In this document: one piece after another, positions 19,958-40,232 of the stretch
Layout of the letters: every line of letters starts with the position of its first letter
How positions within the stretch are numbered: position 1 is the stretch's first letter
Source of the DNA: Candidatus Methanomethylicota archaeon
GTDB lineage: Archaea; Thermoproteota; Methanomethylicia; Methanomethylicales; Methanomethylicaceae
Reading direction: 5' to 3'
Length of the DNA: 64,000 nucleotides
NCBI GenBank assembly: GCA_029887765.1
Contig: JARXPF010000001.1
Location: 258,378 to 322,377 of the forward strand
Made by a program: the position numbers and the translations under genes
The notes under the pieces: generated by a model
Told to the model about the DNA's origin: nothing
The model's database searches: none
What the model saw: the letters and a program-made list of their open reading frames with translations, nothing else

Positions 19958-20944
19958 ATGTGGATTAAGGATTTTGAAAGATGTGAGCTGTGCGCCTGGA
20001 GTTGTAAGGTGAACAGACTCAAAGAAGCTGGGGTGTGTAGGGTTAATGTCCCCGAGGTCGCCACCTTAAACATATCTTACGCGACAAGGAGCGTAACGGT
20101 TACGATGCTTGGTTGCTGCTTTAGGTGTATATATTGTAATGCGTACAGGATATCTCAATACCCCGATGTCGGATGGTTTTACAAGGGGTTCTTAAGCCTG
20201 GAGGATCTTACAAATGAAGTAGTAAAGCTGTATGAGTCCGAGAAGTCGAGAAAATTGAACATAAATTCCTTAAGCTTCACAGGCGGGGAGCCCACAATAC
20301 ATTGGCCATACATAGAGAAAGTCATAAACTTAGTTAGAGAGAGGATAAGCTATGTGAAGGTTGGAATAGCAACCAACGGCTTTTCGAAGAGGTTTAGGGA
20401 GGTCTTAAGTAAGGTGGATTGGATAAACTTTGAGGTGAAGGCATTTGACGATGAGGTTCATAGGGCCATAACCGGTGCCTCCGTAGCGACCGTTTTGAGC
20501 AATCTGAAGGTCCTCGTAAAGGAGTTTCCTGAGAAGATAAGAGTAGTGAGGACAGTGGTAATCCCCAAAATTAATGAGACTCAAGTTTTGAAAATAGCAG
20601 AGTTCCTAGCATCAATAGACTCCGAAACTCCGTATAGGCTAATCGGCTATCGCCCCAACTTCATCACTTACTACCATCCGGGGCCAAGTAAAAAATTAAT
20701 GGAGAATCTCGTTAAAAGAGCTAAAAAAGCTGGATTGAAGAACGTCTCCTTCTCTGGCTGGTATCCTTATAGATATAAGGTGAGGGCTGAGGGAGTATTA
20801 GCGTACAAGAGCGAGGAGGCAAGAATTGCAGCTAGCTATGCAAGGGCTGCAGGCTGTGCTCATCACCCTAGGGATTGTGGAAGCTGTAAGTTAAGACAGA
20901 GTTGCCCAGCGATGATAATGGAACCGTGGCATGTGAAAGCTTAG
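19958..20944 (+). CDS. Radical SAM protein, PflA-like activating-enzyme family
   Basis: 328-residue radical SAM enzyme. The cluster motif CxxxCxxC is CCFRCIYC (about residues 53-60). FTGGEPTIHW binds the SAM amino group. The N-terminal CELCAWSCKVNR...GVCRV and C-terminal CAHHPRDCGSCKLRQSC supply further cysteines for possible auxiliary clusters. Layout resembles archaeal COG1180 (PflA-like) activases, yet no glycyl radical enzyme lies nearby. ATG 19958 follows TAGGAG. Codon use is clearly GC-richer than in most neighbours, and decayed remnants lie just upstream, so horizontal transfer is likely. Substrate unknown. Confidence 0.85.
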   Translation: MWIKDFERCELCAWSCKVNRLKEAGVCRVNVPEVATLNISYATRSVTVTMLGCCFRCIYCNAYRISQYPDVGWFYKGFLSLEDLTNEVVKLYESEKSRKLNINSLSFTGGEPTIHWPYIEKVINLVRERISYVKVGIATNGFSKRFREVLSKVDWINFEVKAFDDEVHRAITGASVATVLSNLKVLVKEFPEKIRVVRTVVIPKINETQVLKIAEFLASIDSETPYRLIGYRPNFITYYHPGPSKKLMENLVKRAKKAGLKNVSFSGWYPYRYKVRAEGVLAYKSEEARIAASYARAAGCAHHPRDCGSCKLRQSCPAMIMEPWHVKA

Positions 20945-29669: not shown

Positions 29670-30889
29670 ATATCTTCAATTTTCTTTGCAATTTTTTCCC
29701 ATGTAAATTCAGAAAGTATTCTCTTTCTTCCATTTTCACCAAGTTTACGCATATGATTTTCATCTCTTAAAATTAATTTTATTGCCATGGCAATATCATA
29801 AGGATCATATGGATTTATATGATATCCTGTTTGATCAGGACCTGCAGAAACCACAGACTCTCTCATTCCACTTACTCCTCTAGCACCTACTACTATAGGC
29901 TTTTTCATAGCCATAGCTTCTAGAGCTACAATTCCAAAAGGTTCATAGAGACTTGGAAAAACTGCTAAATCACAAGCTGCATAATGAACTATTCTTTCTT
30001 CTTCTGGCAACATATTAAAATTAAATATAATTTTATTGGAAAGCCCTAATTTTTCACTCAATTTAATTAATTCATTTTCCATTTCTCCTTTACCTATTAT
30101 AACTAATTTTACATTTGGAAATTCTGAAATTACATGAGGTAGTGCTAAAATTAACTTATCTGGCCCTTTTACACCAGTTAATCTTCCTATGAATAAAATC
30201 ATTTTTTCATTTTCTGAAATACCATATTTTTGTCTTAATTCTTTTATTTTTTCATATGAAACTCTTTCAGGACAATATTTATTTGCATCTACTCCATTCC
30301 AAACTACTTCAATTTTATTTGCTGGAAAATTTAATGCTAAAAGCTCATCTTTCATAGCATATGACACAGTAATTATTTTATCAGCATATATAGCAGCCTT
30401 ATGCTCAAGACTATCTATTAATGGCGATCCATTTCCAAGACTTCGACCTTTTTCAGTAGAATGTATATGAAATACCATGGGAATGCCAAGAGCTTTTTTT
30501 AAGATTATTCCTGCCATTGCAGAAAGCCAATCATGAACTGATAATATATCAAAGCTCTTTTTTTCATTTGGAATAAGATCGTTTACAATCTTTGTACTTA
30601 TTAGTATATTGTAAAGCCATAAATCAGAAAAAAATTTCATTCCAGGGCCCCATCTTCGTATTTCCTCAGCTACTACATCTGGAAAGATTTCAGATATGTC
30701 TAAAAGCTTTGGTCTATGTACTTCAACACCCCCAATCAATTCTCTTGTTTTTAAACTTCCATCATTTAATGTAAAGACAAATACATTATGTTCCATTTTT
30801 ACCAATTGTCTAGATAGTTCATATACATATGTTCCAAGACCGCCAATTATTCTTGGAGGATATTCCCAAGCAAGAATACATACATTCAT
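29639..30889 (-). CDS. Glycogen synthase, GT4/GT5-like
   Basis: 416-residue GT-B enzyme. The N-terminus CILAWEYPPRIIGGLGTYVY carries GGLG, SVHDWLSAMAG follows, FIGRLTGVKGPDKL opens the C-terminal domain, and YEPFGIVALEAMA contains the EX7E motif. HIHSTEKGRSLGNGSPLID is typical of archaeal glycogen synthases. It should elongate glycogen from ADP- or UDP-glucose. It is a paralogue of the enzyme at 25.8-26.9 kb, with a 58-nt identical tract. The 3' end overlaps the debranching gene on the other strand. Confidence 0.87.
   Translation of the reverse strand: MNVCILAWEYPPRIIGGLGTYVYELSRQLVKMEHNVFVFTLNDGSLKTRELIGGVEVHRPKLLDISEIFPDVVAEEIRRWGPGMKFFSDLWLYNILISTKIVNDLIPNEKKSFDILSVHDWLSAMAGIILKKALGIPMVFHIHSTEKGRSLGNGSPLIDSLEHKAAIYADKIITVSYAMKDELLALNFPANKIEVVWNGVDANKYCPERVSYEKIKELRQKYGISENEKMILFIGRLTGVKGPDKLILALPHVISEFPNVKLVIIGKGEMENELIKLSEKLGLSNKIIFNFNMLPEEERIVHYAACDLAVFPSLYEPFGIVALEAMAMKKPIVVGARGVSGMRESVVSAGPDQTGYHINPYDPYDIAMAIKLILRDENHMRKLGENGRKRILSEFTWEKIAKKIEDIYLSLINLPR
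29910..29967. repeat. 58-nt tract identical to 26045-26102 (copy 2)
   Basis: Second copy of the exact match between the two glycogen-synthase-like genes; flanks differ at once on both sides. Confidence 0.85.
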
Positions 30890-30936
30890 ATAATTATATT
30901 AGTGAAGAAGTACTTTTTAAAATAAGTGGTAAAGAT

Positions 30937-31317
30937 TCACATTATGTAACTCAATTTCGTACTTTTTTCAATACAGACCTTATGTCTTTCTAAAATTTCA
31001 TTAATCATTTTTCTAAATTCTTCTTCAGTCATAGCACCAACTATTTGCATAATAGGTAAACCATTACAGAAGAAGACTATAGTTGGAGTGGCCATTATAC
31101 CAAGATTTTCAGCTAGTTCAGCATTGCTTTCATTTGCAAATATATTGAATTTAGTAAATTTTAATTTTCCTTCATATTCTTGAGCAATTTTTTCAAAAAT
31201 TGGATTAAACAATCTACACCAAGGACAACCCTCATGCCAAAAATACACTAATGTCAACATTTTAGATTTAATAACTTCACTATTCCAATTCTCTTTATTT
31301 AAGTCAATAATTATCAT
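30937..31317 (-). CDS. Thioredoxin-like protein (CPWC)
   Basis: 126-residue cytoplasmic thioredoxin fold. The redox site is EGCPWCRLF, and the cis-proline is in MATPTIVFF. There is no signal peptide or anchor. Downstream of CcdA and a TlpA-like gene, it probably supplies electrons to CcdA, which carries them across the membrane to the TlpA-like protein. Sequence beyond the fold (KVCIEKSTKLSYIM) adds one extra cysteine. Confidence 0.85.
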   Translation of the reverse strand: MIIIDLNKENWNSEVIKSKMLTLVYFWHEGCPWCRLFNPIFEKIAQEYEGKLKFTKFNIFANESNAELAENLGIMATPTIVFFCNGLPIMQIVGAMTEEEFRKMINEILERHKVCIEKSTKLSYIM

Positions 31318-31342
31318 AATAATATATCAGTAAAATTAAACT

Positions 31343-31984
31343 TTATAAATATAGCCCCAATATCAAATATAGCCCCATGAGAAATAAAATTAACGCACTC
31401 ATTCTTTGAATTTTATAAATTGATTTTGAAAACTTTTTTAAAATAAAAGTCTTTGCTTTATAAGCAAATAATGTAGCTATGACTATTGGAAAACTCATGC
31501 CAATAGAATATATTATAAATATAGTAATCCCATATAGTAAGCCTAGAGAGAAGGAATAAATTATTATAGATAAGAATACTGGAGTTGAACAACTAGAAGC
31601 AACTACTCCATAAATCACTCCATAAATAAATATTCCAAACATTCCTTGTCTTTTATTAATTGAAAGAAACTTCAATGGTAATTTTATATTTATATTGAAA
31701 ATCATAAGAAAAGACATAATTATTATAGCAATACCAGCAATTAAGGGCATAAAAGGAATATAGTAATAGAGAAATGAACCAATTAATGAAAAGCCTATGC
31801 CTATTACTAAGATAATTGAAATTAGACCTAAAGCACATAATATAATACTAGGAATTATCTTAATTAAAGAAGGATTAACTCCAATATAATAAGATATATA
31901 GCCTGGAAGTAAAGGAAAACTACATGGAGATAAAGACGTAAATATTCCAGCCATTAATGCTAATAATAAATCAGTAATATTCAA
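31343..31984 (-). CDS. ccdA: CcdA-type transmembrane thiol-disulfide carrier
   Basis: 213-residue membrane protein with about six spans. The two redox cysteines are in LSPCSFPLLPGY (first span) and SSCSTPVFLS (mid protein), the expected CcdA/DsbD-beta positions. It moves reducing equivalents from thioredoxin to extracytoplasmic thiol proteins. It lies three bases after the TlpA-like gene and just before the thioredoxin gene, making a complete relay. Confidence 0.88.
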   Translation of the reverse strand: MNITDLLLALMAGIFTSLSPCSFPLLPGYISYYIGVNPSLIKIIPSIILCALGLISIILVIGIGFSLIGSFLYYYIPFMPLIAGIAIIIMSFLMIFNINIKLPLKFLSINKRQGMFGIFIYGVIYGVVASSCSTPVFLSIIIYSFSLGLLYGITIFIIYSIGMSFPIVIATLFAYKAKTFILKKFSKSIYKIQRMSALILFLMGLYLILGLYL

Positions 31985-31987
31985 AAA

Positions 31988-32491
31988 CTATCTCCTCAAT
32001 TTTTCTATTTCTTGAATTATAATAGATGAATGAGTTGTCCCTAGATGTTCAAATGCTATATTTCCATCTTTATCTATTATAACTATTTTGGGTATGGCTA
32101 ATACTTTATAGGAGATACTAATATTTGCTATATCTCTCGCCCATATCCAAGTAGCATTGGGAAATCTATTAATAAAATCTCTCAAAATTTCTTCACTATC
32201 TCTTATTGGGTCTATACTTATAGATATTATTACTATTTCATTTTCATATTTTTGCCAAACTTCAATTAAATATGGAATTTGTTGTTTACAAGGACTACAC
32301 CAAGTAGCCATGAAGTCCAATATTACAATCTTTCCTCTAAAATCGCTTAATCTGAATACTTTTCCATTTAAATCAATCAATTGAAAATCTGGAGCCTTAG
32401 AGGAGTTGATGAAATACCAACCCCCAATTATTACTAACAATATTGCAATTATTGAAAGTATAAAGACATTATTTTTAATATTTGACGGCAT
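31988..32491 (-). CDS. Membrane-anchored TlpA/ResA-like thiol-disulfide protein
   Basis: 167 residues. One N-terminal anchor (about 8-28, VFILSIIAILLVIIGGWYF) is followed by an AhpC/TSA-thioredoxin fold (APDFQLIDLNGKVFRLSDFRGK) with the active site ATWCSPCKQQ and a later proline in LAIPKIVIIDKDG. It should face the outside and be reduced by CcdA. ATG 32491 follows GGAGGTATTTC. The substrate, perhaps an iron or heme protein, cannot be told. Confidence 0.87.
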   Translation of the reverse strand: MPSNIKNNVFILSIIAILLVIIGGWYFINSSKAPDFQLIDLNGKVFRLSDFRGKIVILDFMATWCSPCKQQIPYLIEVWQKYENEIVIISISIDPIRDSEEILRDFINRFPNATWIWARDIANISISYKVLAIPKIVIIDKDGNIAFEHLGTTHSSIIIQEIEKLRR

Positions 32492-32622
32492 ATGAAATAC
32501 CTCCAGCCATGTATTAACTTCGTGATTTATATATTTATGAGTCGATTATAATTTTTATTAATGTCAAGAATTAGTCAATTTCACGATAGTCGATAAACGT
32601 GGCATTTACTCATAATGGAATG

Positions 32623-33132
32623 TTATAGAAAATTTTTAATTATCTTGAGAATGGATTCGTGCCTCTTCTCATCTTCAACTATCCATTCTAATAACGTCTT
32701 CAAGTAGTTGATGTTCAGTTTTAGACTTTCGGCCATTAACTCAACAAGCCTTATTTGTAGAATTGTTAAGTACTCTTCAGCTGCAAATCCTTCTATTCTC
32801 TCCAAGCCTTCTATTACTGAAGCTAAATCATGGTGAGATATACGCTCCATATTCAAGACTTTTTCTATATCTATCATAATCGATTTAAAGACTTCGCCTA
32901 AAATTCCTTCGCATTCTTTATGATCTATTTTTAAGTCACCATATATTAGTTTGCTTATTCTCCTTAGACAATCAGCATGCTTAAACGATTCATGAGCAAT
33001 AAATGCCAAAAAACAGGCAATGGTAGCATCTTCTATTAATTTAGACATATGTTCGTAGGCCTTTGCAACTCTTTCTTCAAAAATACCACAACAATAGATA
33101 AATTTTGCCAGATCTTCTGAAGAACTTATCAT
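32623..33132 (-). CDS. Ferritin-like four-helix protein
   Basis: 169 residues, all helical. Candidate di-iron ligands occur in the usual pattern: FEERVAKAYEH (helix 1), AHESFKHAD (helix 2, ExxH), GFAAEEYLT (helix 3) and EDEKRHES (helix 4, ExxH). This fits the ferritin/rubrerythrin superfamily, although no rubredoxin domain is fused. It may oxidise and store iron or remove peroxide. It lies between the thiol relay and a metal-type ABC importer, both in the same direction as its own strand, which supports an iron-related role (inference). Confidence 0.68.
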   Translation of the reverse strand: MISSSEDLAKFIYCCGIFEERVAKAYEHMSKLIEDATIACFLAFIAHESFKHADCLRRISKLIYGDLKIDHKECEGILGEVFKSIMIDIEKVLNMERISHHDLASVIEGLERIEGFAAEEYLTILQIRLVELMAESLKLNINYLKTLLEWIVEDEKRHESILKIIKNFL

Positions 33133-33183
33133 TAAAAATGCACCTATTTTTAAATTTCTGAACTAAATAGAATAAAAATTTTT

Positions 33184-33978
33184 TTAAAAAGAAATTTTCA
33201 TAGCCGAATTGATATTATTTAATAGGAATATTCTTGGCCTGCCATCTATATTATGAACGCAAACATTTACACCAAAAGTCTTTTTGATATTCTCTGGTGT
33301 GAAAACATCTATAGGAGTTCCTGCAGCAAAGATTCTTCCCTTCTTCATCATTAATATTTTATCACAATACATGGAGGCAAGATTCAAATCATGAAGAGCT
33401 ACAATGGCTGATTTTCCGTTATTCGAAATAATCTCCTTCAGCAAATCCATAACTTCTATCTGATGTCTTATATCTAGATTGCTAGTAGGTTCATCAAGTA
33501 GAAGTATTTTCGCCTCTTGTGCAAGGGCTCTGGCGATTAAAACTTTTTGCTGCTCTCCTCCACTGAGTTCATCAAATCTTCTCATGGCAAAATCGATTAT
33601 TTTCAACTTGGATAGAATTTCCCAAACCTTTTCAACATCTTCCTGACTGTATTTCCAATCAATATATGGTCTTCTACCCATTAGTACTACATCAAAGACT
33701 GTGGGTTTTGAAAAGCCTAGATGTGAACTTTGAGGAACATAGCTAAAAATCTTTGCAATTTCATTTCTCTGCATCTTGTGAATCTCTCTTCCGTCCAATA
33801 GAATCTTGCCCTGTTTCGGTGATAGTATTTTATTAATGCATTTCAATAAAGTGGATTTTCCAGAACCATTAGGACCAACTATACCAAGAAACTCTGAACT
33901 TTTTAATGTGAAGGAAACGCCATCCAATGCTCTATAACTGTTGTATTCGAATTTCACATCATCTATTACTAATTGCAT
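33184..33978 (-). CDS. ABC importer ATP-binding protein, FecE/BtuD type
   Basis: 264 residues. Walker A GPNGSGKST (about 35-43), the signature LSGGEQQKV, Walker B ILLLDEPTSNLD and the switch histidine in VALHDLNLA are intact. It belongs to the family importing iron-siderophores, heme, cobalamin or other metal chelates. Divergent from the binding-protein/permease operon across a 75-nt shared promoter. ATG 33978 follows GAGGA. A membrane partner is the permease at 36.2-37.3 kb. Confidence 0.9.
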   Translation of the reverse strand: MQLVIDDVKFEYNSYRALDGVSFTLKSSEFLGIVGPNGSGKSTLLKCINKILSPKQGKILLDGREIHKMQRNEIAKIFSYVPQSSHLGFSKPTVFDVVLMGRRPYIDWKYSQEDVEKVWEILSKLKIIDFAMRRFDELSGGEQQKVLIARALAQEAKILLLDEPTSNLDIRHQIEVMDLLKEIISNNGKSAIVALHDLNLASMYCDKILMMKKGRIFAAGTPIDVFTPENIKKTFGVNVCVHNIDGRPRIFLLNNINSAMKISF

Positions 33979-34059
33979 GTCTGAGTCCTCAGTAATAAAA
34001 ATATTTAAATAGATAAATAAGTATTACGTTTTTTAAAAAAAGTAATACGGAGGATGGGT
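33979..34059. promoter_or_regulatory. Shared divergent promoter with a 28-bp palindromic operator candidate
   Basis: ATATTTAAATAG (about 34001-34012) can serve as a TATA box in both directions. At 34021-34048 arms GTATTAC and GTAATAC flank a TTTTTT/AAAAAA core, giving a near-perfect 28-bp palindrome that covers the expected start site of the binding-protein gene. This position suits a metal-responsive repressor of the DtxR, NikR or similar type (inference). GGAGG at 34049-34053 is the ribosome-binding site for ATG 34060. Confidence 0.6.
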
Positions 34060-35448
34060 ATGAAAAAAAGAGTTATAGCTTTATTAATGCTAGTTTTAAT
34101 AATTCTCAGCCTTGCATTTTATTGGAATTTACCAAAAACTATGACGAGTGAGACTGCAAAGCCTTCTAGATTTACATTGGAGATATATGGCAATGCAAAT
34201 ATGGATGAGGTAATAGATGAAAAAGACATAACATTCCTCAGGCAGATTATTGATGGAAAGATTAATGCAACTGAATTTGCAGATGCCAACAGAGATGGAA
34301 AAATTGACTTAGCCGATGTAGAACAAGTATTGGCGATTATAAATGGAAATGCTTCTTACATTTGGATTCTAGATGGAAACAAACAACCAGTCAAAGTTAA
34401 ATTACCAGTTAATAGAATAGGTGTTGAATATTTGAGTAATGCAGAGTTGATGAGAATTCTTGGAGTGGAAGATAAGGTAGTGGCTGTTGATTTTGCTCCA
34501 TATCAGTTACGAAACTTCTATTTTCCAGATAGAGCTGATAAAATTATAAATTTAGGAAATATGTTCAAGCCAGATTATGAATTCCTGAATAGTTTAAACC
34601 TCGACATTTTATTTACATTCAGCTTTGATATAGCAGAAAAGAGGGAGAAGTTGGTCGGCGTGGACGTAGTTTTCCTTGGACTATATTGGCCAGATGTTAT
34701 TAATGTAAATGAATCAAGATTCATCCAAGGAATAATGAAGGCAGGATACATATTAGGAAAAGTAGAAAAAGCAAGGGAATATGTTGATTGGCTTTTGAAT
34801 TTAATCGATCTAATCAAGAATAGAACTTCAAAACTGAGCGATGCTGAGAAGCCAATGGTCCTGATGACTGGAATGGTCGGTTATTTGACTGATCCTCAAC
34901 AAAAGACCTTGCGCACCTACACTTTGAGAGATCCCTTGTCTCAGATGTGTATATTAGCAGGCGGGAAGCCCATAGCTGAAGAACTTAAAGATTGGAGTGG
35001 TCCCGGATACTATACCACGGTGGACCTTGAGTGGGTTCTTGGCAAGAATCCGGATTACATATTCGTTCACACTGTTAGATATACATATGGAGGGGGCACA
35101 CTACTTCCTGCATATGGCTATGATGTAAATGACATTAGTAGTTTGAATGAAGTTTGGACGAAGATAACTTCCCTACCAATGCTTTCAAATATAAAGGCAG
35201 TGAAAAATAACAACTTATATATAATCGCTGGAGATTTCAGAAATAACGCCATGGGGGGCGTACTTGGAGCTGTATACATAGCGAAAATACTTCATCCAAA
35301 TCTATTCAGTGATATGAACCCTAGGGACATTCATCAAGAGTACATTACAAAGTGGATGAGGATAGATTATGATTTAAAAAAAGCTGGAACTTTTATCTAT
35401 CCACCCATTAAAATTGGCCAGGAAGTAATAGGCATACCATCCAAATAA
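34060..35448 (+). CDS. ABC substrate-binding protein with an N-terminal dockerin pair
   Basis: About 462 residues. Signal peptide or anchor MKKRVIALLMLVLIILSL, then two dockerin-type calcium repeats at about 44-65 (YGNANMDEVIDEKD) and 75-96 (DANRDGKIDLADVEQVL), then a helical-backbone metal/chelate-binding domain of FecB/BtuF type (VNRIGVEYLSNAELMRILG to the end). ATG 34060 is preferred over 34054, which lies too close to GGAGG. A dockerin would let the binding protein dock on a cohesin-bearing surface protein. First gene of an operon with a methyltransferase and permease. Confidence 0.87.
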   Translation: MKKRVIALLMLVLIILSLAFYWNLPKTMTSETAKPSRFTLEIYGNANMDEVIDEKDITFLRQIIDGKINATEFADANRDGKIDLADVEQVLAIINGNASYIWILDGNKQPVKVKLPVNRIGVEYLSNAELMRILGVEDKVVAVDFAPYQLRNFYFPDRADKIINLGNMFKPDYEFLNSLNLDILFTFSFDIAEKREKLVGVDVVFLGLYWPDVINVNESRFIQGIMKAGYILGKVEKAREYVDWLLNLIDLIKNRTSKLSDAEKPMVLMTGMVGYLTDPQQKTLRTYTLRDPLSQMCILAGGKPIAEELKDWSGPGYYTTVDLEWVLGKNPDYIFVHTVRYTYGGGTLLPAYGYDVNDISSLNEVWTKITSLPMLSNIKAVKNNNLYIIAGDFRNNAMGGVLGAVYIAKILHPNLFSDMNPRDIHQEYITKWMRIDYDLKKAGTFIYPPIKIGQEVIGIPSK

Positions 35449-35455
35449 TTTTTTT

Positions 35456-36241
35456 GTGATGTATATGATCGATTGGAATGAATTGTGGAAGATTATGAAC
35501 TTAAGGAGGGCTAGAGCCCTAAACATAAAATTTTGGGATCTCGAGGCTGATAATAGTGATGAACTTAATGAACTCATGAAGGATTTAACCAAAAAGCAAA
35601 TCGAAATGTTGGATATAGATTATAATGAAACATTGCTGGAGATAGGTCCTGGATGGGGAAGACTCACAATACCATTGGCTAAGATGGTAAAAGAGATATG
35701 TGTTGTTGAACCATCAAAGAATATGATTGAGAAGTTGCAGAAAAACGCCCAACTCAATGGCCTGAATAATATAAGAATAATCAATAAGAAATGGGAAGAT
35801 GTCGATGATTTGCTCGAATATGATGTAGTTTTGGCTTCTTTCTCACTTCTAATGCTAGATTTGAAGAAGGCATTGGAGAAAATGAACTCTACTGCGAAGA
35901 AGAGAGTCTACATCTTTGCTTCAGCAGATGACTGGATGCCAAGAGGAATTCAGAAGGCTCTGTTCAATGATGACATTAAAATATATAGTGATTATATAAT
36001 AATCTTAAATCTGCTATACAGCATAGGTATAAGAGCCAATGTTCAAATTCTAGATTACGAATATAAGAGATGCTTCAATTCGTTCGAAGAGGCTTTGAGA
36101 GCATTCTCAGACATATACAATTTTTTAAAGCTTGATGAAGACATATTGAGGAATTACCTTAAAAATTCATTAATTGAGATGGCAAATGGCTTCTGCTATA
36201 AGGATCAAAAGAAGGTGGCGCTGATTTGGTGGAGAAAGTAG
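35456..36241 (+). CDS. SAM-dependent methyltransferase inside the ABC importer operon
   Basis: 261-residue class I methyltransferase: motif I LLEIGPGWGRLTIPLA (about 57-72), an acidic VVEPSKNM for the SAM ribose, and VVLASFSLLML. It lies 7 nt after the binding-protein gene and overlaps the permease start, so it is part of the transport unit. Its substrate is unknown; a chelate or corrinoid brought in by the transporter, or a metallophore made for it, are reasonable guesses. Start GTG 35456 or ATG 35459/35465 cannot be separated. Confidence 0.78.
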   Translation: MMYMIDWNELWKIMNLRRARALNIKFWDLEADNSDELNELMKDLTKKQIEMLDIDYNETLLEIGPGWGRLTIPLAKMVKEICVVEPSKNMIEKLQKNAQLNGLNNIRIINKKWEDVDDLLEYDVVLASFSLLMLDLKKALEKMNSTAKKRVYIFASADDWMPRGIQKALFNDDIKIYSDYIIILNLLYSIGIRANVQILDYEYKRCFNSFEEALRAFSDIYNFLKLDEDILRNYLKNSLIEMANGFCYKDQKKVALIWWRK

Positions 36242-37275
36242 ATGAGAGGACGAAGTATAAGGCATTAATATTAAGGAGAATGCTTTTTTCAATAATTTGT
36301 ATATTGTTAATAATATTATTAATAGGCATATCTCTGTCCATCGGGAGTATACAAATACCCCTAGTGGAAGTTTATAGTGTAATATTGAGTAAAATTTTTC
36401 CCCATTATTTTAGTGTAGATTTACTCTCGGAAATCGTGATTTGGCATTTGAGATTTCCCAGAACTATAATGGCAGTATTATGTGGTATGACCCTTGCCAT
36501 CGCCGGATCCAAGACAATGGCCATATTAAGGAATCCATTGGCCACTCCTTATACTTTAGGAATTTCTGCTAGTGCGGGCTTTGGTGCAGCTCTTGCTATT
36601 GTATTCAGTAGAGGACTACTATTTGAAGGAACCTTCCTAATCATAGGTAACGCCTTTCTGCTATCCCTAATACCAATAACTATTATAATTCTCTACTCGA
36701 AAAAACCTAGTGCAAATCCAGAGTCAATCATTCTAATGGGCGTGGCAATAAATTACATATTTAGTGCATGCAATACCCTTCTTCAATTCTTTGCTGAGAG
36801 TGATGCTGTAAAGGCCGTGGTTTTCTGGTTGGTGGGAGATTTAGCAAGAGCATCTTGGTGGCAAATTCCCTATGTTTTTAGTGTATTATTGCTATTGATA
36901 TTAATTAGTATTAGAATGGCGCCAGATATCAGCATAATGAAAATGGGGGATGATCAAGCAAAGGCTCTTGGGGTCAATGTAGAAATGGTTAGAAAAATAT
37001 CACTGATAATGGCTTGTCTCTCCACATCCACAGTAATAAGTTTTACAGGAGCCATTGGCTTTGTTGGTCTTCTATCTACCCATATATGTAGATATATCAT
37101 AGGAGAGGATGAACGTTACCTCATACCCATATCTGGACTCTTTGGTGCAAATTTATTGCTGTTTTCGGACATAATTGCTAGAAGAGTAATAGCGCCTGCA
37201 ATTTTACCTGTGGGAGCCATAACTGCAATAATGGGAGGACCACTTCTGATAATCCTTCTATTAAGAAGAAAGTAG
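36226..37275 (+). CDS. ABC importer permease, FecCD/BtuC family
   Basis: 349 residues with about nine or ten membrane spans. Family sequences are clear: WHLRFPRTIMAVLCGMTLAIAGSKTMAILRNPLATPYTLG, then GALGV-type FVGLLSTHICRY before GLFGANLL. It forms the channel for the chelate and pairs with the divergent ATPase. TTG 36226 overlaps the methyltransferase end by 16 bases. The last gene of the operon; tRNA-Leu follows. Confidence 0.9.
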   Translation: MVEKVDERTKYKALILRRMLFSIICILLIILLIGISLSIGSIQIPLVEVYSVILSKIFPHYFSVDLLSEIVIWHLRFPRTIMAVLCGMTLAIAGSKTMAILRNPLATPYTLGISASAGFGAALAIVFSRGLLFEGTFLIIGNAFLLSLIPITIIILYSKKPSANPESIILMGVAINYIFSACNTLLQFFAESDAVKAVVFWLVGDLARASWWQIPYVFSVLLLLILISIRMAPDISIMKMGDDQAKALGVNVEMVRKISLIMACLSTSTVISFTGAIGFVGLLSTHICRYIIGEDERYLIPISGLFGANLLLFSDIIARRVIAPAILPVGAITAIMGGPLLIILLLRRK

Positions 37276-37310
37276 CAAATTGTAATCTATTGTAAATTGA
37301 CCTAGCCTAA

Positions 37311-37395
37311 TGCGGGGGGTGGGATTTGAACCCACGAAGGCCTACGCCACAAGGTCCTAAGCCTTGCGCCTTTGACCTGACTTGGCGACCCCCGC
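37311..37395 (-). tRNA. tRNA-Leu (TAG)
   Basis: 85-nt class II tRNA on the minus strand: acceptor GCGGGGG with CCCCCGC, anticodon arm with CTTAGGA loop (TAG), long variable arm (GTGGCGTAGGCCTTC), T arm GTGGG-TTCAAAT-CCCAC, discriminator A. CCA is not encoded; no intron. Confidence 0.96.
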
Positions 37396-37443
37396 TTCAT
37401 ATACAAAAAGGAAGAAGAAATTTTATTAACTTTATTTCATAAT

Positions 37444-37878
37444 TTATATATTGTTCTCAGCAGTTCCTTTTATTATTTCATAACTCCATTTTATTTCTGA
37501 AATAGAAGATAGCATAGCAGCAATTGGACAAAGCTTTGACATTGCTAAATTTACAACTCTATCAACAACTTCATCATCTAAATCTCCTTTAAGTTTAAAT
37601 TTTACATAAATTTTATTCAAAATTTTAGGATGTTCCTCTCTAGTAGTTCCTTCTAATTCAGCTTCATAATATATGAGTCCTTGTTTTCTAGCTTTTAACA
37701 TAGCTACAATTTCAAGACCTACACATCCTCCTAAAGCCATTAAGAATAAATCCATAGGAGTTATTCCACTTCCTGTTCCTCCATATTTTTTATGAGCTTC
37801 CATAAGTACTTCATGACCGTAAGAGTCTCTTCCATAAAGTTTTAAATCTCCATTCCAAACCACTGTTGCTTTTGGCAT
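37444..37878 (-). CDS. OsmC/Ohr-like protein
   Basis: 144 residues of the OsmC fold. The two peroxidatic-type cysteines are Cys52 in LGGCVGLE and Cys117 in KLCPIAAM. GTGSGITPMDLFL is a strong family segment. Such proteins reduce organic hydroperoxides with thiols; in anaerobes other thiol roles are possible. Single gene next to tRNA-Leu, start ATG 37878. Confidence 0.87.
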   Translation of the reverse strand: MPKATVVWNGDLKLYGRDSYGHEVLMEAHKKYGGTGSGITPMDLFLMALGGCVGLEIVAMLKARKQGLIYYEAELEGTTREEHPKILNKIYVKFKLKGDLDDEVVDRVVNLAMSKLCPIAAMLSSISEIKWSYEIIKGTAENNI

Positions 37879-37906
37879 AGCTTTGATAATTTAAAAAAAG
37901 TAATAT

Positions 37907-38254
37907 TTAATCTTTTTTCAAATTTATTGGAATTTGATCTTTTAATTTAAATATATGAATTGGAGGATTAAATCTATTATCATATTTGAATGTACCTTCC
38001 TTTCCTACAAGTATATTTTTAATTTCTTCTAATGTAGCTTTTTTACAAAAAGAATCTATTCCACCATGTAAATCAGTATAATCATCATAGAAGAAAGAAT
38101 TTTTAGCTTCAAGTACATCTATAATCTTTGCTTTCCCACTTTCTTCTTCTAATATTTCCATTAGGACCCTTATTTCTCCACTAATATGGGATTTTCTCCA
38201 CATTATATATTCAAATGTTATAATTTCATGAAATACCTCTTCTTTTATTTTCAT
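37907..38254 (-). CDS. Hypothetical protein
   Basis: 115 residues, soluble, mixed alpha/beta, no signal or membrane segment. Notable are the aromatic YIMWRKSH near the N-terminus and FFYDDYTDLHGGIDSFCKKATLEEI in the middle. I recognise no family. It is divergent from the MetV-MetF operon across 50 nt and could be linked to it only by position. Confidence 0.55.
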   Translation of the reverse strand: MKIKEEVFHEIITFEYIMWRKSHISGEIRVLMEILEEESGKAKIIDVLEAKNSFFYDDYTDLHGGIDSFCKKATLEEIKNILVGKEGTFKYDNRFNPPIHIFKLKDQIPINLKKD

Positions 38255-38304
38255 TTTCTACACCACGATAATTATAAATTGAGCTTTTAAATTTACTTTG
38301 TGGG

Positions 38305-38931
38305 TTGATTAAATTGATAATAACAAAACAAAAACCAAATTTATTAAAAAATCTTGAAAAATATAATAAAATATTCATTATTGGTTGTGGAAATTGTGCA
38401 ACTATATGTAAAACAGGTGGTGAAAATGAAGTTAAAGCCTTGGCTGAAAAACTTGGTGATAAAGTTATTGGAAATATTGTAATAGAAAGTCCATGTAATT
38501 TAAAATTTTTAAAAAAAGATCTTAAACCATTTATGTATAGTAATGCAGAAGTTATTGTAGCTTTATGTTGTGGAGTTGGAGTACAGTCTATTGTTGAATT
38601 TACAAATAAAGAAGTTATTCCAGGTTTAGATACATTATTTTTAGGAGAAGTAGGAATAAAGGGAAGATTTTATGAAAGATGTAGAGCTTGTGGAACTTGT
38701 ATATTATATGAAACTGGTGGAATTTGTCCAATTTCAAGATGTGCAAAAAAATTATTAAATGGCCCATGTGGTGGAATGGTAAATGAAAAATGTGAAGTAG
38801 GTAATTATTCTAAGGATTGTGCTTGGATTTTAATTTATAAAAGATTAAAAGAATTAGGAAGAGATTTTGAAAAAATAATAGAAGTTCATAATTGGCAAAA
38901 TAAACCTGGAGAATTAATATTAGGCGATTAA
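38305..38931 (+). CDS. metV: MetV-like partner of methylene-tetrahydrofolate reductase
   Basis: 208 residues rich in cysteines: IGCGNCATIC, ALCCGVGVQ, CRACGTCILYETGGICPISRCAKKLLNGPCGG and EKCEVGNYSKDC. The NGPCGG segment and overall set match MetV (MTHFR C-terminal-like, zinc/iron-sulfur) proteins that accompany MetF in acetogens and some archaea and relay electrons to it. TTG 38305 or 38314 is the start; neither site is decisive. MetF follows one base after the stop. Confidence 0.85.
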   Translation: MIKLIITKQKPNLLKNLEKYNKIFIIGCGNCATICKTGGENEVKALAEKLGDKVIGNIVIESPCNLKFLKKDLKPFMYSNAEVIVALCCGVGVQSIVEFTNKEVIPGLDTLFLGEVGIKGRFYERCRACGTCILYETGGICPISRCAKKLLNGPCGGMVNEKCEVGNYSKDCAWILIYKRLKELGRDFEKIIEVHNWQNKPGELILGD

Positions 38932-38932
38932 A

Positions 38933-39844
38933 ATGAAGAGAATATTTAGTGAATTCATGAAAGCTCTTTATAATAATTCCTTTGTATTTACAACTGAAAT
39001 AGAACCAAAAAAAACTGTTAATCCTGAAGGAATAATTAATTTAGCAAGAAAATTTAAAAATCATGTTATTGCATGTAATATTACAGATAATCCAAGAGCT
39101 CATGCATATATGAATAGTATTATAGCATCATATATAATTCAAAGGGAAGTTGGTCTAGAAACTATATGTCATATGACTGTAAGAGATAGAAATAGATTGG
39201 CTTTAATATCTGATGTACTTGGAGCTTGTGCTTTAGGGATTAAGAATATTTTAACTATAACAGGAGATCATACAACTATGGGGGACAATCCTAATGCCAT
39301 GCCAGTATATGATATAGATTCAACTCAATTTATTTATATGTTGAGAAAAATGGTGGATGAGGGAATTGATCTTGCAGGTAATAAAATAGATGGAGAAGTA
39401 AGAATTCATATAGGAGCTGTTGGAAATCCTAATGCTAATCCATTTGAACCTGAAATTTTAAAAATAAAAAGAAAAATAAATGCAGGTGTAGAGTTTATTC
39501 AAACACAAATTGTCTTTGATGTAGAAAGAGCAAAAAGATTTATAGAAGAACTTAAAGCCCCTCCTCCTTTTATATTAATTGGAATATTTCCATGTAATTC
39601 ATATAGAATGGCAGAGTTTATAGATAAGAAAGTACCAGGAATCTCAGTTCCTAATGAATATAAAGAAGTTCTTAAAAAAGCAAATGAGAATAAAGAAAAA
39701 ATTGATGAAAGTAATATTGAATATTTCTCAGAAATGATAAAAGAGCTTAAAAAAACTACAAGAGCTTCTGGAATTCATATAATGACAATAAAGTATGAAG
39801 ATATTGTTGGTAAGATAATAGATAGTGTTAAAGGAATATGTTAA
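38933..39844 (+). CDS. metF: Methylenetetrahydrofolate reductase
   Basis: 303-residue TIM-barrel flavoprotein reducing methylene- to methyl-tetrahydropterin. Family segments: FTTEIEPKKTVNPEG at the N-terminus with the catalytic glutamate, ICHMTVRDRNRLAL, and NILTITGDHTTMGDN. The tight link to MetV indicates ferredoxin-linked reduction as in the MetFV complex. In an F430-making organism it may stand in for the F420-dependent Mer enzyme (inference). The pterin (folate or methanopterin) cannot be read from sequence. Confidence 0.88.
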   Translation: MKRIFSEFMKALYNNSFVFTTEIEPKKTVNPEGIINLARKFKNHVIACNITDNPRAHAYMNSIIASYIIQREVGLETICHMTVRDRNRLALISDVLGACALGIKNILTITGDHTTMGDNPNAMPVYDIDSTQFIYMLRKMVDEGIDLAGNKIDGEVRIHIGAVGNPNANPFEPEILKIKRKINAGVEFIQTQIVFDVERAKRFIEELKAPPPFILIGIFPCNSYRMAEFIDKKVPGISVPNEYKEVLKKANENKEKIDESNIEYFSEMIKELKKTTRASGIHIMTIKYEDIVGKIIDSVKGIC

Positions 39845-40232
39845 ATTAAGTATTATTTTATAAATATAGTTGTATATACTTATTTATTATTTTGATTTTA
39901 TCATAATATTAAAAACTTTGAATTTGGAAATATTAGAAGAAATTTACTTGTTCTATAACAAAATTTCTCACAACTTCATTGTAATATAGAAGTATAAGCT
40001 TCAAAATCTCCAAAAGCAATTTTTGAAAAAAGTCCTCTTGAATAATTTTATTATCATATAAGAAAGTATTTGAAATCAATGTAAAGTAAATCTTTCCTAA
40101 ATCGCTCAATTAATCTTTCAAACTATTAATTTTTACTTAATAATTTAACTATTAACAAATTTTTATATAGTAAAATGAAAGTAATTCAAATTCAATACCT
40201 TAAAAGGAAGCAAATTATACCCATTTGGTAAG
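39845..40232. other. 388-nt AT-rich spacer
   Basis: No credible gene. On the minus strand two short frames near 39950-40040 read partly protein-like (for example SRGLFSKIAFGDFEAY) but have stops and no starts; at most a decayed remnant. The rest is low-complexity sequence before tRNA-Arg. Confidence 0.3.

Follow-up and report, generated by a model that had tools for sequence, protein, structure and literature searches.

What does an archaeal importer carry when a methyltransferase is encoded between its binding protein and its permease, and what switches it? The question is raised by a 64,000-nucleotide stretch of a Candidatus Methanomethylicota genome (GCA_029887765.1, contig JARXPF010000001.1, positions 258,378 to 322,377), here called the window, in which a preliminary description had placed a chelate importer of the ATP-binding cassette (ABC) type with a dockerin-bearing binding protein and an embedded methyltransferase. 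All four open reading frames (ORFs) of that description are present at 33184-37275, and Pfam confirms the ATPase, the binding protein, the methyltransferase and the permease. What it appears to have overlooked is the switch, a putative NikR-type operator in the promoter. Our preferred reading, to which we give a probability of about 0.6, is that the locus encodes a NikR-repressed importer of a nickel complex, FecCD/BtuCD in type and NiuBDE-like, with a ligand-modifying methyltransferase and a dockerin that serves as a spacer. The anchored binding protein would catch the nickel complex outside the cell, and the single FecCD permease, as a homodimer, would move it inward together with the divergent ATPase. 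NikR would repress the importer when nickel suffices. The methyltransferase, in the cytoplasm, would methylate the organic ligand and so either free the nickel or build or recycle a chelator of the cell's own, while the dockerin would form a Ca-stabilised spacer between the anchor and the ligand domain. Judged from sequence, the importer is a candidate and not a proven nickel transporter.

A predicted NikR-type operator and its company

The candidate operator, GTATTAC-N14-GTAATAC, is one of two zero-mismatch sites in the host genome; it lies in the divergent promoter, where a TATA-like element stands some ten bases upstream of it. The available part of PMC545781 gives the delta-proteobacterial NikR signal as GTGTTAC-[N13/14]-GTAACAC and shows GTaTTAC in one half of the site before hydAB of D. 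desulfuricans; relative to this consensus, which is a delta-proteobacterial one, the window site carries one symmetric change per half-site. After the repeat had been noticed in the window, the relaxed pattern GTRTTAC-N13/14-GTAAYAC was tested on 16 divergent promoters. L137, L130, L010 and G292 are not among them, because a contig ended there, a divergent ATPase was not seen or the sequence was not fetched. Eleven promoters contain an exact site, three a site with one mismatch and two a site with two, so that 14 of the 16 lie within one mismatch of the relaxed form; N14 is the best spacing in all, and many of the promoters have two sites. Random windows of equal length drawn from these loci never matched this score (up to 300 draws each), and shuffles did so in 0-1 of 300. 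The host's two other FecCD importers, which have neither methyltransferase nor dockerin, show no such site at up to two mismatches. Across 76 named loci (0.88 Mb) the matches listed number 16, of which 15 have the inward and one the outward form, and in the Methanothrix loci L060, L061 and L063 the binding protein is preceded by a site with two mismatches.

In ten genomes searched at no more than one mismatch, 32 sites were found against 10 for the reversed pattern; 12 of the 32 belong to the operon itself. We inspected 17 of the 20 remaining sites (leaving out G250:29256, G320:C23:6095 and G103:2000691, which is identical in sequence to the G270 site), and ten of these precede or adjoin metal-uptake or nickel-related genes. 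One accompanies a CbiM-type transporter that has LarC close by, along with a gene judged by eye to be LarE-like; two are followed by CooC and then by a FecCD-type binding protein and an O-methyltransferase; one precedes an [FeFe]-hydrogenase, which parallels the site of D. desulfuricans. Other FecCD-type binding proteins account for three sites, and a ZnuABC-type importer, the host's CobN and a CooC/binding-protein remnant named by eye for one each.

CooC, which loads CO dehydrogenase with nickel, is also met inside the operon. CooC-like genes lie between methyltransferase and permease in the Methanosarcinales loci L025, L027 and L082, with a fragment in L021, and the protein of L082 matches the CooC structure 3kje over 241 residues (E 1.6e-20). 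Nickel is essential to methanogens and their relatives, which use it in methyl-coenzyme M reductase (MCR) with its cofactor F430, in CO dehydrogenase/acetyl-CoA synthase and in hydrogenases. The host, whose genome of 1.17 Mb is 96.9% complete, encodes MCR alpha and is therefore probably a methanogen in need of nickel. Its genome gave no CbiM/NikM match, and no search aimed at NikABCDE or NiCoT was made. Nickel was one metal on the list of the preliminary description; the operator, its company and the CooC genes within the operon favour it.

Several observations weigh against a nickel switch. Outside the operon the excess of sites over the reversed control is only twofold (20 versus 10), and six of the 17 inspected sites have no visible metal link. 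The host's only other exact site precedes CobN, a gene named for cobalt, which is also preceded by the outward-facing pair GTAATAC-N14-GTATTAC. Three of the 16 promoters (L127, L128 and L129) differ so little that they amount to roughly one, and the site was not seen in most Methanosarcinales operons. The host has two NikR_C proteins, one scoring 117 bits against a cut-off of 111 for NF002169 (NCBIfam). NikR_C is found, however, in 340 of 398 Thermoproteota genomes, so that its presence proves little and is uninformative as evidence of co-occurrence, and the operon genome G255 is not among the matches.

Three of the loci surveyed hold further observations. At L169 (G240:C12:156979) an exact NikR-type site immediately precedes a 212-aa membrane protein without a Pfam or NCBIfam match, which adjoins an [FeFe]-hydrogenase that has its own site. 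The host's only CobN consists of two overlapping ORFs of 770 and 496 aa (L159:52-3826; G000:C3:120051-123825), which jointly cover nearly the whole family profile and stand behind two NikR-type sites; this could reflect a split gene, a frameshift or an assembly error. A second NikR-like gene of the host lies directly behind a ZnuBC-type metal importer (L121; G000:C3:136619-139831).

Importer, methyltransferase and dockerin

Because the ATPase gene is on the opposite strand, the four genes form two divergent units and not a single operon (Table 1). Permease, ATPase and Peripla_BP_2 protein (55 bits, residues 127-391) all score above their Pfam cut-offs and are encoded together, as in FecCD/BtuCD-type importers. 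The permease ORF, starting from TTG at 36226, overlaps the methyltransferase stop at 36241 by 16 nt.

Table 1 Features of the importer locus in window coordinates
Feature	Position	Strand	Basis or remark
Rubrerythrin/ferritin-like neighbour, not part of the importer	32623..33132	-	PF02915 22.3 bits, cut-off 22.8; GC at third codon positions (GC3) 0.296
ABC ATPase, FecE/BtuD type	33184..33978	-	ABC_tran 128 bits (Pfam)
Divergent promoter region, 75 bp	33979..34053	.	Read directly
TATA-like element TTTAAATA	34004-34011	.	Picked by eye
Predicted NikR-type operator GTATTAC-N14-GTAATAC	34021..34048	.	Sole zero-mismatch site in the 64 kb window
Substrate-binding protein, 464 aa: anchor, dockerin, Peripla_BP_2 domain	34054..35448	+	Pfam, predicted structure
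N-terminal hydrophobic anchor helix, residues 5-24	34066..34125	+	AlphaFold model, low confidence there
Type I dockerin domain, residues ~41-100, two Ca loops	34174..34353	+	Pfam, profile, alignment, model
Ligand-binding domain, FecB/CeuE/YiuA-like fold	34354..35445	+	Foldseek
Class I methyltransferase dependent on S-adenosylmethionine (SAM), 258-261 aa	35456..36241	+	Start GTG 35456 or ATG 35465
FecCD permease, 349 aa, TTG start	36226..37275	+	FecCD 272 bits (Pfam)

The preliminary description had joined the methyltransferase to the transporter, and the relatives bear this out. At E <= 1e-20, 26 of the 398 Thermoproteota genomes contain the enzyme, and in 19 of the 26 the genes for binding protein, methyltransferase and permease are contiguous; in the other seven, transporter genes lie nearby in three (G062, G069 and G089) and were not found in the short stretch fetched for four. 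Among the 76 named loci a FecCD permease is present in 29 and a binding protein only in three more, the linked loci being mainly those of Methanothrix, anaerobic methanotrophic archaea (ANME) and other Methanosarcinales. The methyltransferase ORF runs into the permease ORF in each of the 16 operons examined (L009, L123-L129 and L131-L138), by 1-52 nt according to the longest ORF and mostly by 19. This conserved arrangement in Thermoproteota, recurring in Methanosarcinales and ANME, indicates that the methyltransferase belongs to the importer. The remaining 44 named loci are nearly all from Methanomicrobiales, with the enzyme apart from an importer. These unlinked enzymes form one clade of the tree (37 rows, support 100/100, nearly all Methanomicrobiales), indicating that the enzyme can also work without the importer; their neighbours gave no functional hint, the largest cluster being a phosphate-type binding protein, assigned by eye, at 9 of 47 loci.

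The enzyme itself (Methyltransf_25, 44 bits in Pfam) retains the SAM-binding GxGxG motif, with G61, G63 and G65 invariant in 50 of 50 aligned proteins, and matches class I Rossmann folds. Its model (mean predicted local distance difference test score 91.8) resembles class I methyltransferases of many kinds, and none of the 50 matches listed by Foldseek and VIA-align has a nicotianamine- or staphylopine-synthase-type fold. Methyltransferases of metals and metalloids, of the As and Hg type, are marked by conserved active-site Cys or His. No His or Cys column reaches 90% of the 50 sequences, and at positions 119 and 185, where His is common in relatives, the window protein has Tyr. This speaks against a metal or metalloid methyltransferase and for an organic substrate; the cytoplasmic enzyme would act on the organic ligand.

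What this ligand might be is hinted at by other genes in related loci. CobN adjoins the operon in G022, lies inside it in L082 and occurs in L142. A BchU-like O-methyltransferase is present in L017, L019, L026 and L050, with a relative near CooC in L172, and a different class I methyltransferase follows the FecCD importer of L166. In L167 (496-2793, G196) a HutW/ChuW-like radical SAM enzyme (278 bits, cut-off 400) is encoded after a FecCD binding protein and before a FecCD permease, a NikR-type site standing 24 bp upstream of the group, and in the Methanosarcinales locus L025 (2520-5716) a nitrogenase-component-1-like gene pair separates binding protein and methyltransferase. FecCD/BtuCD-type pumps carry tetrapyrroles, and the company of CobN, BchU-like, HutW-like and nitrogenase-like genes suggests tetrapyrrole chemistry. 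Each of these associations is seen in only a minority of the loci, and neither the BchU-like nor the HutW-like enzymes reach their equivalog cut-offs. That the imported complex is a nickel tetrapyrrole, F430 or its debris from dead methanogens, whose ring the methyltransferase would modify or open for reuse of the nickel, seems to us a doubtful proposition. Among the Methanosarcinales loci, 25 also encode an SPFH-type protein and 17 an ABC-2 type transporter, which would fit as well a chelator that the cell makes, exports and re-imports.

The binding protein carries its dockerin where the preliminary description had put it, between the anchor and the ligand domain; the 'pair' proposed there is one type I domain with two Ca-loop repeats. 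Its Pfam score is borderline, 19.9 bits (E 8.7e-4) in one search and 23.9 in another against a cut-off of 22.9. Solved dockerins, 1daq among them (E 0.0025), are matched by a profile built from 15 relatives. In all 15 aligned proteins the residues N47, D51, D55, D58, D77, N79, D81 and D88 of the Ca loops are invariant, and AlphaFold confidence over the domain is 94-97. The same GNANxDD-type dockerin is found by the dockerin profile on 15 of 22 binding proteins from Thermoproteota and on 23 of 45 others, the count being limited to locus proteins 330 aa or longer. A 1095-aa binding protein of Methanomethylicus mesodigestus (L018:1301-4585; G013) has three Peripla_BP_2-type units and three dockerins. 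In the window protein the ligand domain resembles, in Foldseek, YiuA (1.3e-17), the molybdate protein HI_1472 (2.9e-16) and H. pylori CeuE with Ni-His (4ls3, 5.8e-14).

The operon is found in only two of the 22 genomes of the host's family, to which G013, with its matching gene set, also belongs. The four importer genes rank second to fifth in GC among the 52 ORFs of the window (GC 0.348-0.376, GC3 0.30-0.42; median ORF 0.281 and 0.067). This unusual composition and the patchy distribution make horizontal acquisition likely. Including the rubrerythrin-like neighbour, whose GC3 is likewise far above the median, the stretch 32623-37275 is likely an acquired island. The highest GC of the 52 ORFs belongs to a radical SAM gene at 19958-20941 (0.448, GC3 0.51).

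Alternatives and the choice of metal

The operator site upstream of the host's only CobN gene pair, and the CobN genes beside or within related operons, would also suit a cobalt-chelate or corrinoid importer that feeds CobN and B12, with a NikR-like protein that senses cobalt. The ATPase and the permease do score best against heme and B12 families, the best NCBIfam matches of the ATPase being heme, corrinoid and ferric-citrate importer ATPases, all under equivalog cut-offs. The B12 cut-offs are, however, widely missed (BtuC 190 of 334 bits, corrinoid ATPase 241 of 537), and a BtuFCD vitamin B12 importer was rejected at the equivalog level. An Rfam scan of 30000-40000 matched a tRNA only, so that no B12 riboswitch lies there, and the sites before [FeFe]-hydrogenase and CooC, together with CooC inside the operon, point to nickel; we consider cobalt rather unlikely. 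Iron fares less well still. An ordinary siderophore importer, with a methyltransferase that modifies the iron siderophore, would agree with the importer families, which are named for iron, and with the closest solved binding proteins, which are of the iron-siderophore type, such as YiuA. FecCD family names do not predict the metal, however, since molybdate HI_1472 and the Ni-His protein CeuE (HP1561) are matched too, and the operator matches the NikR signal, although no search aimed at iron-regulator sites was made; we consider iron very unlikely.

Two further alternatives concern parts of the system. The methyltransferase could be a bystander of housekeeping function that became caught in the operon, as the sister clade of 37 enzymes away from any FecCD gene might suggest. 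Its contiguity with binding protein and permease in most Thermoproteota that have it and in many Methanosarcinales, the overlap with the permease ORF in every operon examined, and the distinct methyltransferases that stand beside further FecCD importers sharing the operator (L166, L172) speak against this, and we think it improbable. In the preliminary description the dockerin was proposed to bind a cohesin and so tether uptake to a surface complex, and dockerins on ABC binding proteins are reported together with cohesins in ANME archaea, in the available part of PMC9012536. Cohesins are likewise present in seven of the 19 operon genomes, all seven from one family. The tether fails in the host, as far as Pfam detects cohesins: a search with PF00963 gave no cohesin match in its genome, the importer's dockerin is the only one there (Pfam), and the binding protein has a membrane anchor of its own. 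Cohesin matches are lacking in 12 of the 19 operon genomes and absent from G013, G022 and the four f32 genomes, yet the dockerin is kept in G013 and in the four f32 operons with a permease. With no cohesin to bind, the domain is better read as a Ca-stabilised structural spacer, and docking, most unlikely as its role here, may occur where cohesins exist.

Comparison with known systems

A literature search by title and start of abstract, with most subscription journals outside its reach, found no description of this operon. If the preferred reading of a NikR-controlled nickel-complex importer is correct, it would add a FecCD type to the archaeal nickel and cobalt transporters of a 2009 survey, the available part of which names Nik/CbiMNQO, NikABCDE and NiCoT only (PMC2667541). 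Those transporters would supply metal to the same nickel enzymes, and the FecCD type is not among them. The reading would also answer how a host genome with no CbiM/NikM match obtains nickel. Uptake and ligand methylation would moreover be coupled, and one could then search directly for an archaeal nickel chelator or for a route that salvages nickel tetrapyrroles.

As far as the available text of PMC545781 goes, NikR sites of delta-proteobacteria precede Nik(MN)QO transporters and an [Fe]-only hydrogenase, whereas those of the host precede a FecCD importer and CobN; compared with these regulons, the sites described here have N14 spacing and A or G at the third position. Like the ANME proteins, the window protein has a dockerin fused to a metal-type binding protein. 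It differs in that its genome has no cohesin match and in that the types listed for ANME, in the part of PMC9012536 available, are NikA/OppA and TroA. The case shows that archaeal binding proteins can have a dockerin without this being a sign of a cohesin complex. The tetrapyrrole methyltransferases ChuW/HutW and BchU have relatives beside related FecCD importers (L167 and L019), below equivalog cut-offs, and the window enzyme is unlike them in being a different class I methyltransferase.

The closest known system, on the available text of PMC5140060, is NiuBDE of H. pylori, which transports nickel. Its FecD-type permease, FecE-type ATPase and CeuE-type binding-protein fold have counterparts in the window, where the FecCD-type permease and ATPase gene types, together with the predicted NikR-type operator, would make the importer NiuBDE-like. 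It differs from NiuBDE in being archaeal, in the methyltransferase gene inserted between binding protein and permease, in the N-terminal dockerin and in the divergent ATPase.

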